Positions 53,716 to 60,737 of a DNA stretch of 64,000 bases are shown here, piece by piece. The position numbers and the translations under genes are program-made. This DNA is from Betaproteobacteria bacterium (GTDB lineage Bacteria; Pseudomonadota; Gammaproteobacteria; Burkholderiales; Burkholderiaceae_A), in contig JAGWWC010000002.1 in NCBI GenBank assembly GCA_018970545.1, positions 62,001 through 126,000 on the forward strand. Direction: 5' to 3'. The notes under the pieces were generated by a model. The model worked only from the letters and a program-made list of their open reading frames with translations. It was not told the origin of the DNA and ran no database searches. Numbering within the stretch: the stretch's first letter is position 1; each line of letters begins with the position of its first letter.

Positions 53716-54246
53716 TTAGCGTACTTCAGCGATCCAGTTTCTGAGCTCTTCTTCTTTTATCCTGCCGAGTTTTTGCTTTAAAACCCTGCCATTTGCATCA
53801 ATTAGCACTGTATAGGGAAGAGCTTCTATCGAATTTCCGAGTCGTTTGGACAGTTCACTTCCTGATCCTCCGGTCACCAGAAGCGGGTAGCTGAAACTAC
53901 GAGTCTTTAAGAATTCCCGGACATTAGACGGTGAATCGACGGCTAATCCCACCACTTTAACGTCTTTTGAAGACAATTCTTCGTGAATTCTGGACAATTC
54001 AGGCATTTCCTCGACGCAGGGCGGGCACCAGGTCGCCCAAAAGTTGACCACCGTCAGTCGGCCTCGGACATTTTGAAGGCTGATGGCTTCTCCCTGAGGA
54101 TTTGGAAAAGAGAGTTCAAATACCCAGTCGGCAGTCGGCACCTTGGCCGGGCTGAGCCGCAGCATGCCCACAGCAATTCCTGCAATGAGCAGGATCAGGC
54201 CGACGGCGGCCAGAAGGCCCCATTTGGATTTTTTGCTCAGGCTCAT
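53716..54246 (-). CDS. TlpA-family thiol:disulfide oxidoreductase
   Basis: N-terminal TM and [23 protein letters not shown]. Confidence 0.93.
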
Positions 54247-54887
54247 GGCGCCTCTTGGACTGGGTGATCGCGCAGCAGTTTCTCAACCGATTTGATGTCT
54301 AGCCGATAGTGTTTTCGTTTGGCTTCAGCCCGCGGGCTGCTGCGCTGTTCGCTTTCGGGAAAGACCGCGATGGTCGCCAGCTCCCCCTGCCATTGGATGG
54401 CCAGGGCCTCGATGGCATCGCCCCCAGGCCGCTGCGGTGCAAGGCTGTCGGCTTCACTGTCAAAACCCTGGTTCATCAGAAAGATGCCCAGCTCTTTGGC
54501 GCTTGGCGCAAAGCAATGCAGGTGGATATCGCTGTGTTCACTCGCAGTGCCGTTGGCCACGGCCCCGGTGAGCATCGGAGAAAAATCCGCCAAGAGCTGC
54601 ATTAAGGCCAGCGCCTTTTCGCGTAGCGCCTGCAGCCGCAGCGGCTGGGAATCGGATTGGAAGAGTTTTTGATACTGCCGTACGGCCTCTTCGATTTCTT
54701 CATTAGAGGGCAGGATCTCGCGCTGTAAACGGTGATGTTTTTTGCCGGCAATGCGCTCGATGGCTTTACGTTTTGCGTTGGCATAGTCCAGGCCCTCTTC
54801 GGCGATGAGGCTGGCGGCCGCTGCCGCGATTTCAGCCCGCAATGTGCTGCCTGTCGAAAAGAGGTCGCTTGTATTTTCAAAAATCAT
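54243..54887 (-). CDS. Uncharacterised protein, possibly nucleotidyltransferase-like
   Basis: Good ORF MIFENTSDLFSTGSTLRAEIAAAAASLIAEEGLDYANAKRKAIERI; start 54887 or 54896; conserved-looking divergent neighbour of mpl. Confidence 0.75.
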   Translation of the reverse strand: MIFENTSDLFSTGSTLRAEIAAAAASLIAEEGLDYANAKRKAIERIAGKKHHRLQREILPSNEEIEEAVRQYQKLFQSDSQPLRLQALREKALALMQLLADFSPMLTGAVANGTASEHSDIHLHCFAPSAKELGIFLMNQGFDSEADSLAPQRPGGDAIEALAIQWQGELATIAVFPESEQRSSPRAEAKRKHYRLDIKSVEKLLRDHPVQEAP

Positions 54888-54924
54888 GGTCGGCATTATG
54901 CCCATCGCTACAATGCCGGCCATG
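54885..54924. repeat. Imperfect inverted repeat spanning both starts of divergent gene pair
   Basis: CATGGTCGGCATTATG-cccatcgc-TACAATGCCGGCCATG; 13/16 complementary. Confidence 0.85.
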
Positions 54925-56331
54925 CATCTACATGTAATCGGGATCTGCGGCACCTTTATGGGGGGCTTGGCCCAGCTGGCTCGGTCCTGCGGCTTTCGTG
55001 TAACGGGATGTGATGCCAATGTCTATCCCCCGATGAGCGCACAGCTGGCCCAGGCGGGCATCGAGGTGATTCAGGGCTTTGAGGCCGATCAGCTGGATCT
55101 TGCCGCCGATGTCTGGGTGGTCGGTAATGTGGCCCGTCGCGGCATGCCGTTAATCGAGGCCTTGCTCAATCAGAACGCCCCAATGATTTCGGGCCCGCAA
55201 TGGCTCGGCCAGGTGTTATTGCCGCGGCATCGGGTGCTCGCGGTCTCGGGCACCCATGGTAAGACGACCACCAGTGCGCTTCTTGCCTGGATTCTGGAAG
55301 CGTCCGGCCACCGGCCATCGTTTTTGATTGGGGGTGTGCCGGAAAACTTTGGAGTCTCAGCGCGGCTCAGTCCGTCGCTCACATTGCCACTGGCCACGGC
55401 GGCCGTTGACGGTGATCGCATTGTGCCGTTTGTGATTGAGGCCGATGAATATGACACGGCCTTTTTTGATAAGCGATCAAAGTTTCTGCATTACCGGGCC
55501 GAGATCGCCGTTTTGAATAATCTCGAATTTGATCACGCGGATATTTTTCCGGATCTCGCCGCAATTGAGACCCAGTTTCACCATTGGATCCGAACCCTTC
55601 CAGCAGCGGGCCGGCTGATCGTGAATGGCCGTGAGTCGGCATTGGCCCGGGTGATGGATCGCGGAGCCTGGACACCCATCGAATTTTTTCAGCACCCAGA
55701 ACACTGGTCCATTGGCCCTGTTCAGGGCGGCCAGGATCAAGAGGTGTTTGAGGTTTTTTGGAAGGGCGCGCTGCAGGGCCGCGTCGCTTCACCCTTACTC
55801 GGTGCGCACAATCGCAGCAATATTCTGGCCGCAGTTGCCGCAGCCCACGCCACTGGCGTGGCGGCGGATCAGGCCTGCGCCGCGATTTCTAGCTTTCGCG
55901 GCGTAAAGCGTCGGATGCAGCTGCGCGGCGAGGTCCGCGGCATTCAGGTGCTGGATGATTTTGCCCACCACCCCACCGCAATTGCCACAACCCTGGCTGG
56001 ATTGCGCGCACAAATGCAGCGTCTTCAGTCTTTAGGCCGCCTGATCGCTGTATTGGAGCCGCGTTCAAACACCATGAAGTTGGGCGTGATGTCATCGCGG
56101 CTTGCATCCAGCCTTGAATCGGCCGATGTCGTGTTTGGATATTCGGGCGGCCTGGATTGGGATTTAAACGCGGCCCTTTCGCCGCTTGGCTCCAAAGCCC
56201 AGGCCCATGCTGACCTGCAGACGTTGGTCGCGGCAGTTGCGCAGGCGGCAGCGCCGGGTGATCGGATCGTTGTGATGAGTAACGGCGGCTTTGGCGGCAT
56301 TCACGAGCGTCTGCTCGCTGCGCTGGCTTAA
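54922..56331 (+). CDS. mpl: UDP-MurNAc:L-Ala-gamma-D-Glu-meso-DAP ligase Mpl
   Basis: [53 protein letters not shown]. Confidence 0.96.
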   Translation: MHLHVIGICGTFMGGLAQLARSCGFRVTGCDANVYPPMSAQLAQAGIEVIQGFEADQLDLAADVWVVGNVARRGMPLIEALLNQNAPMISGPQWLGQVLLPRHRVLAVSGTHGKTTTSALLAWILEASGHRPSFLIGGVPENFGVSARLSPSLTLPLATAAVDGDRIVPFVIEADEYDTAFFDKRSKFLHYRAEIAVLNNLEFDHADIFPDLAAIETQFHHWIRTLPAAGRLIVNGRESALARVMDRGAWTPIEFFQHPEHWSIGPVQGGQDQEVFEVFWKGALQGRVASPLLGAHNRSNILAAVAAAHATGVAADQACAAISSFRGVKRRMQLRGEVRGIQVLDDFAHHPTAIATTLAGLRAQMQRLQSLGRLIAVLEPRSNTMKLGVMSSRLASSLESADVVFGYSGGLDWDLNAALSPLGSKAQAHADLQTLVAAVAQAAAPGDRIVVMSNGGFGGIHERLLAALA

Positions 56332-56356: not shown

Positions 56357-59209
56357 ATGTTTGTACTGTTTGAAGAAGATGGCGCCTTTAAAGTTGGCAC
56401 GCTCTTTTCCGAGAGTGATGCAAGTCTTCAGGTAGAGATGGCCTCGGGCAAGCGGTCCAAGATCAAGCGCACTGCTGTGCTGCTGACGTTTGAGCAGCCG
56501 GGCCGTGATGCGTTGATGCCCGCTGCCCAAGAGATCGCTCAGGGCCTGGATCCCCAGTTCCTCTGGGAGTGCGCCCCGCAAGATGAATTCAGTTTTGCCG
56601 ACTTCGCCCGTGAGGTCTTTTCAAATACGCCGCGTAGTGATGAGTCGGCGGGTCTGCTCATGGCGTTGCATCAGTCGCCAATGTATTTTTATCGCAAGGG
56701 CCGCGGCCGCTATCGGGCGGCGCCGGAGGACGCGCTGAAGGCGGCCCTGGCCGGGGCGGAGCGCAAGCGTCAGGCAGCACTCGAGCAGCAACGGCTGCAC
56801 GAGGCCATTGTCGCTGGTGAGATGCCCACTGAAATCAAAGAGCGGGCGCTGATGCTCTTGGTGCGGCCTGATAAGCAGTCGGTGGCGTTTAAGGCCTTAG
56901 AGTCCGCAGCCCAGGCCCTACAAATGGCGCCGGCGCGGCTGCTGCTATCGCGCGGGGCTTTACCAAGCGCTTACAGCCTGCATCGGGCCCGCTTTCTGCA
57001 GCAGTGTTTTCCCGCGGGCACCGCCATTGATGTTCCCGCCGATGAAATCGATTTGATGGTGCGTCAGTCCGAGCGGTTCTCATTGCCGCAGGCACCGAGC
57101 CCAGCCTATTCGATTGATGATGCGACCACTACTGAGATTGACGACGCCTTTTCACTGCAGGAACTGGCCGAGGGCGGATGGCGGGTTGGCATTCATATCG
57201 CCGCGCCAGCGGCGGCCATTGGACCTGAGAGTGCGCTGGGCCAGTCAGCCCGAGAACGGGCTTCGACGGTGTATTTCCCGGGCGAGAAAATCACCATGCT
57301 GCCCGAGGCGGTGATTGCGGCGTATTCGCTCGATGAAGGACGGGCCCGGCCGGCGCTTTCCTTGTATGTGGACTTCAACTCAGCAGGCGAACGCATTGCC
57401 AGCCAGTCGCGCCTTGAGCGCGTGCAGATTCAACAAAACATTCGGCTCGGCGAGTGGGAGCGGGCCCTTGAATTTCCTGATGGGCAGATTGCATCAGCAG
57501 ACTTGCCGTGGGCGGGACTCAAGCCATTGCTGATGTTGGCAAGGCGCCTGCGCCAGGCCAGAGAACAGGTGCGCGGCCGGCCGGAGGCAGCGGGCCGACC
57601 TGACTTTAATTTTTATGTGCAATGGAATGCCTCGAATCCGCAGGCCGTGCTGACAGGAGACGGCCTGCCGCAAATCATTGAGCGGCGTCGAGGCTCCGCC
57701 GTGGATGTGCTGGTCTCGGAGTTCATGATTCTGGCCAACACCACCTGGGGCGATGCGCTCGCACTGGCCCGACTGCCGGCGGTCTATCGGGTCCAGACGC
57801 TGGGCCGAGTGCGAATGCAAACGCAGCCGGGCCCGCATCAGGGACTGGGTGTTCAGAACTATGCCTGGTCGACTTCGCCGCTCAGGCGTTTCAGTGATTT
57901 GCTGAATCAGTGGCAGATGTTGGCGGTGTTGGGCCACCGTCAGCCGGTCTATCGTGGCAACGAGGCCGATTTATTTTCGAGCGTGTCCCAGTTCGATGAG
58001 GCCTATAACCACTACGCCGATTTTCAGCAGACCATGGAGTCGTATTGGGCCCAGCGCTGGTTGGCAATAGCGCACGGACTTGAAAATAACGAGTCATGGA
58101 TAGCGAGTGGCGCGGGCGGCCCACTGCGTGAGCCTGCGATCACACTGCGGGGAGGGGGATTTCGGCTGCGTCGGGCACCACTGATTTGCCGCTGCGCTGA
58201 TGCGCCCGAATTAACGCCGGGCGTGGAAGTCGAGTTGGATATTCTCGCCGCGGATGCGTTAGAGCTTAGCCTTCAGGCAAGATTCGTACAGGTGTTATCG
58301 ACGCAGCCGGAGGCCGAGGAGGATTCGATGATGTTGCCCAGACACTATGCCGTGCTGGGAAGTCCAATTGCGCACAGCAAGTCTCCGGTGATTCACGCCA
58401 TGTTCGCGCAGCAGACGGGTGAGGATCTGGAATATCAGGCCATTCAAGTGGTGCCTGCCGAACTTGCTGCTGAGATTGAACGCCTCATTGCGAATGGCTG
58501 GGGCGGCGTGAATCTCACAGTGCCGCTCAAGGAACATGCCTTCGCACTCGCCCGAGCGGCCGACTGGGAAATCTCTGCGCGGGCCTTATCGGCATGTGCC
58601 GTGAATACCTTGCGATTTGATGGCCATCAGGTTTTCGCGGACAACACGGATGGCATTGGCTTGGTAAGAGATTGTGAGCGTCTGCTGGGTGGAGCGGGCG
58701 CCTTGCAGGATGCGAGTGTTTTAGTGATTGGCGCAGGTGGCGCAGCCCAGGGCATTGTGGGCCCGCTTCGTGAGTCGGGGATTCGAAGCCTGCTGCTGGT
58801 GAATCGCAATCTGCAAAAAGCCCGGGAGGTCGCTGCCCGATGGCAGAGCCTGGATGCGACCGCAGCCGATTGGCTATCGGTGGCACCACTGGAGTTGCTG
58901 GCTGAGCCGTGGACGTCGGCCGGGCCTGAACTGGTGATCAACGCGACTTCAGCAAGCCTGGCCGAGCAGCAGCTTGCAATTCATCCCAGCGTGTTGTCTC
59001 GAGCGCGGGCTGCGGTGGACATGATGTACGGTTCGGCGCCCACCGTATTCATGCAACAGGCCCAGCAGGCCGGTGCCACCCGGGTTGCCGATGGCCTGGG
59101 CATGTTGGTGGAGCAGGCGGCCGAGGCATTTTTCCTGTGGCGGGGTGTTCGGCCGGAAACAGCTTCGGTATTGGCCGAATTGCGTTTACAGTTAGCGCCA
59201 CCCTCTTAG
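56357..59209 (+). CDS. RNB (RNase II-family) exoribonuclease fused in frame to shikimate dehydrogenase AroE
   Basis: RNB motifs YSIDDATTTEIDDAFS and NYAWSTSPLRRFSDLLNQW, then AroE motifs YAVLGSPIAHSKSPVIH, GWGGVNLTVPLKEHAF, LVIGAGGAAQGIVGPL without an intervening stop. Confidence 0.9.
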   Translation: MFVLFEEDGAFKVGTLFSESDASLQVEMASGKRSKIKRTAVLLTFEQPGRDALMPAAQEIAQGLDPQFLWECAPQDEFSFADFAREVFSNTPRSDESAGLLMALHQSPMYFYRKGRGRYRAAPEDALKAALAGAERKRQAALEQQRLHEAIVAGEMPTEIKERALMLLVRPDKQSVAFKALESAAQALQMAPARLLLSRGALPSAYSLHRARFLQQCFPAGTAIDVPADEIDLMVRQSERFSLPQAPSPAYSIDDATTTEIDDAFSLQELAEGGWRVGIHIAAPAAAIGPESALGQSARERASTVYFPGEKITMLPEAVIAAYSLDEGRARPALSLYVDFNSAGERIASQSRLERVQIQQNIRLGEWERALEFPDGQIASADLPWAGLKPLLMLARRLRQAREQVRGRPEAAGRPDFNFYVQWNASNPQAVLTGDGLPQIIERRRGSAVDVLVSEFMILANTTWGDALALARLPAVYRVQTLGRVRMQTQPGPHQGLGVQNYAWSTSPLRRFSDLLNQWQMLAVLGHRQPVYRGNEADLFSSVSQFDEAYNHYADFQQTMESYWAQRWLAIAHGLENNESWIASGAGGPLREPAITLRGGGFRLRRAPLICRCADAPELTPGVEVELDILAADALELSLQARFVQVLSTQPEAEEDSMMLPRHYAVLGSPIAHSKSPVIHAMFAQQTGEDLEYQAIQVVPAELAAEIERLIANGWGGVNLTVPLKEHAFALARAADWEISARALSACAVNTLRFDGHQVFADNTDGIGLVRDCERLLGGAGALQDASVLVIGAGGAAQGIVGPLRESGIRSLLLVNRNLQKAREVAARWQSLDATAADWLSVAPLELLAEPWTSAGPELVINATSASLAEQQLAIHPSVLSRARAAVDMMYGSAPTVFMQQAQQAGATRVADGLGMLVEQAAEAFFLWRGVRPETASVLAELRLQLAPPS
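58317..58333 (+). promoter_or_regulatory. Internal Shine-Dalgarno and ATG ATG at RNB/AroE junction
   Basis: AGGAGG 58317-58322, 5-nt spacer, ATG 58328 in frame with the fusion ORF. Confidence 0.8.
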
Positions 59210-59258: not shown

Positions 59259-60737
59259 ATGACCGAGACCATCGATCACTCATCTTCACTTCGCGACCCT
59301 GAGGCCGCGCAGCTGGCCCTGGCCGAGGTCCAGGAGATCCTCGCGCGTCAGCGTCTTGAGAGTGATCTTGTCCATCGTGAGCAGCATCATGTTGCTGCAG
59401 ATCGCCAATCTCTGGTTGAACAACTCTTGCTGAAACAGCATCAGGCCGCATTGCAGTCGCGGCTTGATCAGTTGCATCCGGCCGATATCGCCTACATCCT
59501 TGAGGCCCTGCCGCGCGAAGAGCGGCTGATCATCTGGGAGCTGGTGCGGGCCGAACGCGACGGAGAAATTCTTGTCGAGGTTTCGGATGCGGTCCGCGAG
59601 ACCCTGATCGCGTCGATGGACCGCGAGGAGCTGGTTGCTGCTGCCGAAACACTGGAGCCTGATGATCTTGCTGCACTGGCCCCCGATCTTCCGGAAGAGG
59701 TGGTTGAGGAAGTCAGTGAGGGCCTCTCGATCGAAGAGCGCGAGCAGCTTCGGACCGCGATGTCGTATCCCGAGGGGAGCGTTGGCGCGCGCATGGATTT
59801 CGAGATGGTCACGATTCGCGATGACGTGAGTCTTGAGGTCGTGCTGCGTTATCTGCGGCGCTTTGATGAGTTGCCCAGCAATACGGATCAGGTGTTTGTG
59901 GTGGATCGCGAGGATCGTTTGCAGGGCAGCCTGCCGATTGGCCGGCTGCTGGTCCACGAGCCGGAGACGCTGGTCCGCGAGCTGATGATGGCCGATGTCA
60001 TGCGGCTTGAGCCGCTGGATGAAGCGGGTGATGCGGCGCTTGCGTTTGAGCGTTACGACCTCGTGTCAGCGCCGGTGGTGGATCCGCAGGGCAGGATCAT
60101 TGGCCGACTGACGGTCGATGAGGTGGTGGATGTGATTCGTGAAGAAAGTGAACAGGATGTGCTGGCCCAGGCCGGCCTGCGCGAAGAGGAGGATCTTTTT
60201 GCATCGGTGTGGGCGTCTGCGAAAAACCGCTGGCTTTGGCTGGCGTTAAATCTATGCACTGCGTTTTTTGCCTCGCGCGTGATCGGCGCATTTGAGGGCA
60301 CCATTGAGCGGGTGGTGGCACTGGCCGCCCTGATGCCGATTGTGGCGGGCATTGCCGGCAACTCTGGCAATCAGACCATGACCCTGTTTATTCGCTCCAT
60401 CGCCTTGGGCCAGGTCAATGCAAAAAATGCCCCGCGTCTATTTGCCAAAGAGCTCTCGATCGCAATGCTCAATGGCCTGGTCTGGGGATCGATTGCAGGC
60501 CTATTTGCCTGGTGGCTCTACAGCGATACGGATCAGGGAGTACTGCTTGGACTGACGATGATGCTGGCCATGCTGCTGAATTTATTGATCGGTGCTTTGA
60601 TTGGTCTATTGGTGCCTTACGTGCTGGATCGGATCGGCCGGGATCCAGCGCTCGGGTCATCCGTGCTGCTGACTTTTAGCACGGACTCGATGGGTTTCTT
60701 TATTTTCCTGGGACTGGCCACGTTGTTTTTTGCCTGA
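59259..60737 (+). CDS. mgtE: Magnesium transporter MgtE
   Basis: MgtE N domain, CBS pair, IVAGIAGNSGNQTMTLFIRSIALGQV. Confidence 0.96.
   Translation: MTETIDHSSSLRDPEAAQLALAEVQEILARQRLESDLVHREQHHVAADRQSLVEQLLLKQHQAALQSRLDQLHPADIAYILEALPREERLIIWELVRAERDGEILVEVSDAVRETLIASMDREELVAAAETLEPDDLAALAPDLPEEVVEEVSEGLSIEEREQLRTAMSYPEGSVGARMDFEMVTIRDDVSLEVVLRYLRRFDELPSNTDQVFVVDREDRLQGSLPIGRLLVHEPETLVRELMMADVMRLEPLDEAGDAALAFERYDLVSAPVVDPQGRIIGRLTVDEVVDVIREESEQDVLAQAGLREEEDLFASVWASAKNRWLWLALNLCTAFFASRVIGAFEGTIERVVALAALMPIVAGIAGNSGNQTMTLFIRSIALGQVNAKNAPRLFAKELSIAMLNGLVWGSIAGLFAWWLYSDTDQGVLLGLTMMLAMLLNLLIGALIGLLVPYVLDRIGRDPALGSSVLLTFSTDSMGFFIFLGLATLFFA

Follow-up and report, generated by a model that had tools for sequence, protein, structure and literature searches.

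Results

One frame for an exoribonuclease and a shikimate dehydrogenase

The window, the 64,000-nucleotide stretch of DNA analysed here, contains on its plus strand a single open frame that runs from an ATG at position 56357 to a TAG at 59207-59209 and encodes 950 amino acids, with a predicted mass of ~102 kDa for the full-length product. The initial annotation had described one continuous frame of about 950 aa at 56357-59209 in which an RNase II-type exoribonuclease is joined to shikimate dehydrogenase (AroE), and both the open ATG-to-TAG frame and the Pfam domains bear this out. The same 950-aa protein matches RNB (3.4e-47), Shikimate_dh_N (3.2e-17), SDH_C (7.7e-10) and Shikimate_DH (2.6e-7), all four above their gathering scores. 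Profile search and a structure model place the exoribonuclease half at residues 1-648 (56357-58300, plus strand); its RNB catalytic Pfam stretch covers residues 249-480 (57101-57796) and its C-terminal S1/OB-like barrel extends over about 58124-58300. A linker of residues 649-662 (TQPEAEEDSMMLPR; 58301-58342) connects the two enzymes, and the three shikimate dehydrogenase Pfam domains fall within residues 666-943. Inside the fusion a Shine-Dalgarno-like GAGGAGG (58316-58322) is found 5 nt 5' of the ATG at 58328, which belongs to a pair of in-frame ATG codons (58328-58333); these form a candidate internal start that would give a free AroE of ~31 kDa. Counted from this candidate start to the stop, the AroE half spans 58328-59209.

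The flanking genes lie on the same strand: upstream is a gene for an mpl-type Mur ligase (54925-56331; Pfam) and downstream is mgtE, encoding a divalent cation transporter (59259-60737). On the minus strand, a 258-aa open frame with no Pfam match (54243-55019) is antisense to the start of mpl and overlaps it.

The exoribonuclease half

The RNB half exceeds the Pfam RNB cut-off by a wide margin (161.7 against 29.3 bits) and has the catalytic positions of RNase II, which align as D254, E260, D262, D263, Y306, E455, R510 and E561. We take these to correspond to D201, D207, D209, D210, Y253, E390, R500 and E542 of E. coli RNase II, the first part of that numbering having been checked by alignment. 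Across a comparison of 56 RNB proteins, from fusions as well as from unfused genes, nine positions do not vary, the metal-binding and catalytic ones among them. The glutamate E260 (57134-57136), which replaces D207 of the E. coli enzyme, is a conservative change; it is common to every unfused relative compared and so was not caused by the fusion. In its RNB domain with conserved Asp, Tyr, Glu and Arg residues, its S1-like barrel and its fold, the half resembles RNase II of E. coli (2ix0/2id0) and Deinococcus (2r7d). It differs from the E. coli enzyme in the glutamate at the D207 position, in the AroE attached to its C-terminus and in scoring far below the exoribonuclease II equivalog cut-offs (99.6 against 542 bits for NF003455; 86.2 against 641.9 bits for TIGR02062). 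Judged by these scores, the RNB half represents a distinct RNB subfamily; it is not the equivalog of either RNase II or RNase R from E. coli. Betaproteobacterial RNB proteins adjoining mpl likewise have Glu at the D207 position and fall well short of the equivalog models for RNase II and RNase R. The RNB half has a dN/dS of 0.06-0.10 wherever dS allowed an estimate, and we regard it as a putative active 3'-5' exoribonuclease.

The shikimate dehydrogenase half

The C-terminal 293 aa score above the AroE equivalog cut-offs of both NCBIfam NF001310 (300.8 against 221 bits) and TIGR00507 (211.8 against 200.2 bits). The AroE motifs K725, D765, GAGGA (792-796) and NR (816-817) do not vary among the 14 aligned fusions, and dN/dS of this half is 0.05-0.19 where dS is estimable. 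The claim in the initial annotation that both halves keep their active-site motifs, and that the gene is not an obvious pseudogene, thus withstood examination: the catalytic residues are invariant and dN/dS is about 0.05-0.19 over the two halves.

AroE is present solely as the fusion in all 20 fused genomes tested. Their secondary AroE matches are weak, fall below the cut-off, cover the dinucleotide-binding part of the profile only and come from frames that are mostly near 430 aa in length, as would suit glutamyl-tRNA reductase. Chorismate synthase (aroC) is present in 11/11 genomes, and this, together with the sole AroE, suggests that the pathway is in use; we infer that the fused AroE is active in the cell.

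The half is a full-length member of the PRK00258 group, with the catalytic Lys and Asp of AroE from E. coli (1nyt) and P. putida (4omu) and 43% identity to the latter in the structural match. Those enzymes stand alone, whereas the AroE N-terminus is here joined to an exoribonuclease. AroE is also a domain of a longer polypeptide in 3-dehydroquinate dehydratase-AroE (2gpt), AROM (6hqv) and chorismate mutase-AroE (3fbt), but there it is paired with enzymes from its own or the following pathway, while the partner in the window is a protein that degrades RNA and has no known link to it.

Distribution of the fusion

The fusion is genuine and not an artefact, since 18/18 genomes from two genera have it uninterrupted and in frame across the same junction. 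Seven of them, at 66-97% identity, represent the window's genus, and eleven, at 48-55% identity, a second, sister genus of the window's family, with no unfused genome in either genus; some of these 18 genes end at a contig edge, as in G024, which still spans the junction in frame. The carriers, water bacteria with small genomes, include LSUCC0115 (MWH-UniPo clade, Burkholderiales), an isolate in pure culture that was sequenced at 105x coverage (PMC6952679) and has the fusion on contig WJBW01000004.1.

Searching across the order returned a match over the full length in G197, which belongs to another family; the protein has 953 aa and contains RNB together with the complete set of AroE domains. 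This match led to a second fused lineage, an Alcaligenaceae-like genus in which 7/8 genomes have the same in-frame junction; in one of the seven the gene is split between contigs with the junction open. In the eighth genome (G313), rnb and aroE are separate and adjacent. The RNB tree groups this genus with Candidimonas (Alcaligenaceae), with G313 as the sister of the fused members, at a distance from the window's family, and two changes of state are needed on the RNB tree and two on the AroE tree. The RNB-AroE fusion arose twice independently. The initial annotation had proposed a search of relatives for proteins with both RNB and Shikimate_DH domains, mapped on trees, and its outcome is fusions in three genera with two origins.

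Apart from the genus of G197, no further fusion came up among 400 genomes from 158 genera of the order, 271 from 43 genera of the second family (that one genus excluded) or 369 sampled from the class, in searches that miss fusions with distant RNB relatives below their E-value limits. Repeating the order search from another centre drew mostly the same genomes. We found no description of the RNB-AroE domain pairing in the open-access literature.

Several candidates were rejected. A 997-aa span in a further family (G043, locus L031 on G043:C19) has rnb and aroE in a shared frame with a single stop between them and is not a fusion. Long open frames in G035, G071, G236, G256, G294 and G371 are not RNB-AroE fusions. 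Loci of Massilia, Noviherbaspirillum and similar genomes served as a negative control: the open frames 5' of aroE at these GC-rich, Massilia-type loci have no RNB in frame and are spurious. Two 0.8-Mb genomes of genus g152 (G546 and G548) present a near-fusion, in which rnb and aroE match as one stretch broken by just two stop codons.

Predicted structure, linker and internal start

An AlphaFold2 model, built from an alignment of fusions and unfused halves, has a mean pLDDT of 93.4, with linker residues 653-658 below 50, and a pTM of 0.68 that does not fix the relative placement of the halves. Foldseek matched its halves to AroE structures with TMt up to 0.93 and to RNase II/R structures with TMt 0.52-0.77. 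This pattern is the one to be expected of two independent enzymes on a tether, although it does not prove that the halves never touch. Linker length varies among the three fused genera: the window's genus has linkers of 14-17 aa, the sister genus has linkers of 4-8 aa, and those of the second fused lineage, mostly acid-rich, reach from 14 to 46 aa. Such variation speaks against a single conserved interface.

Each of the seven genomes in the window's genus has a strong Shine-Dalgarno sequence (-8.3 to -12.1 kcal/mol) 4-10 nt 5' of an in-frame candidate start codon, ATG or TTG, where AroE begins. No comparable internal signal was detected in the sister genus or the second fused lineage, with the exception of a possible GTG in L016. 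Since the internal Shine-Dalgarno and start are largely confined to the window's genus, some free AroE may also be made there beside the fusion, while in the sister genus and the second lineage AroE is probably made solely as the fusion. A test for codon-level selection on the internal Shine-Dalgarno gave no support, as 36-83% of the synonymous codings yield an equally strong signal; the EE(D/E) peptide accounts for that strength, which in itself does not point to selection.

Discussion

Our findings describe an old and convergent fusion that joins two unrelated housekeeping enzymes. We consider it probable that a fixed, genuine fusion gives one polypeptide containing two separate enzymes, an exoribonuclease with its S1-like barrel and a complete AroE, held together by a flexible linker. 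The sequence points to translation as one protein, and the two halves most likely work independently, like beads on a string. Loss of the stop codon through sequencing or assembly error has next to no probability: the window does come from a draft genome of 118 contigs, but the open junction is shared by 18 genomes, several of them nearly complete, and by the pure-culture isolate at 105x, which refutes it. The artefact against which the initial annotation had cautioned is excluded by these independent genomes. An arrangement in which the frame is continuous and the cell nevertheless uses separate proteins, through internal initiation of AroE or cleavage of the fusion by a protease, has in its favour the strong internal Shine-Dalgarno and start in every genome of the window's genus. 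We think it unlikely, given that the signal is missing from nearly all sister-genus genomes and from the whole of the second lineage, that the sister-genus linkers have a mere 4-8 residues and that internal initiation would still allow the full-length protein to be synthesised.

It is also conceivable that the fusion couples the two activities, for instance with RNA decay adjusted to the state of AroE (NADPH or shikimate) or with AroE positioned by the RNA-binding half, and that the join was selected. The same join was made twice independently, no loss of the fusion was observed inside the fused clades, and RNB is kept in 18/18 fused genomes as against a matching RNB in just 2/8 genomes of the unfused sister genus g3. 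Retention of RNB would, however, also be expected if its deletion would harm the sole AroE of the cell, and the linker varies widely in length and composition both between and within clades, with no confident interface in the model (pTM 0.68). We know of no link between RNA decay and shikimate dehydrogenase functions, which counts further against coupling, and we regard it as very unlikely. Equally improbable, in our judgement, is that selection for a physical tie between RNA turnover and the status of aromatic acids or NADPH lies behind the repeated, unreversed joining. Two independent enzymes on one chain is the reading that we prefer.

Fusions of bacterial genes usually unite enzymes from one pathway, and 'Rosetta stone' reasoning takes them as predictors of functional links. 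In the present case the partners belong to RNA decay and to amino-acid synthesis; they were joined twice independently, in small genomes, and have been retained over a long divergence. If this is a neutral fusion of chance neighbours, it is a warning against inferring function from fusions; if it is not neutral, it hints at an unknown link between the two functions. The differences in linker and internal start among the three fused genera, together with one cultured species, make the question testable.

Origin of the fusion

In Massilia and similar genomes the gene order is mpl-rnb-tonB-aroE-transglycosylase, and tonB is missing from both fused lineages. The genes rnb and aroE are adjacent, without tonB and unfused, in two genomes of genus g3 (L034 and L035), and they are adjacent and unfused in L147. 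The statement in the initial annotation that rnb and aroE can be neighbours in betaproteobacteria therefore stands for direct adjacency in L034, L035, L147 and L031; it does not extend to most of the loci examined, in which tonB intervenes.

A deletion of tonB would have brought rnb next to aroE, loss of the rnb stop codon would then have joined the frames, and the fused pair was probably retained because the cell has no shikimate dehydrogenase besides this AroE. The adjacency without tonB in genus g3 (L034 and L035) and the arrangement in G313 make deletion followed by stop loss the simplest route in both lineages, an order that rests on unfused relatives and not on a preserved intermediate. 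The proposal of the initial annotation that a lost RNB stop made the fusion is supported as the simplest origin, for an event that is old and fixed in two genera, not recent or local.

Support for grouping the fused genera within the window's family is modest (48 and 82), in part owing to the long AT-rich branch of the unfused genus g3. The genomes of g3 (L034-L038) have long branches and a GC content of 0.32-0.36, compared with about 0.6 in the fused genera. In at least three of them (L036-L038) rnb has been lost, and mpl is followed directly by aroE.
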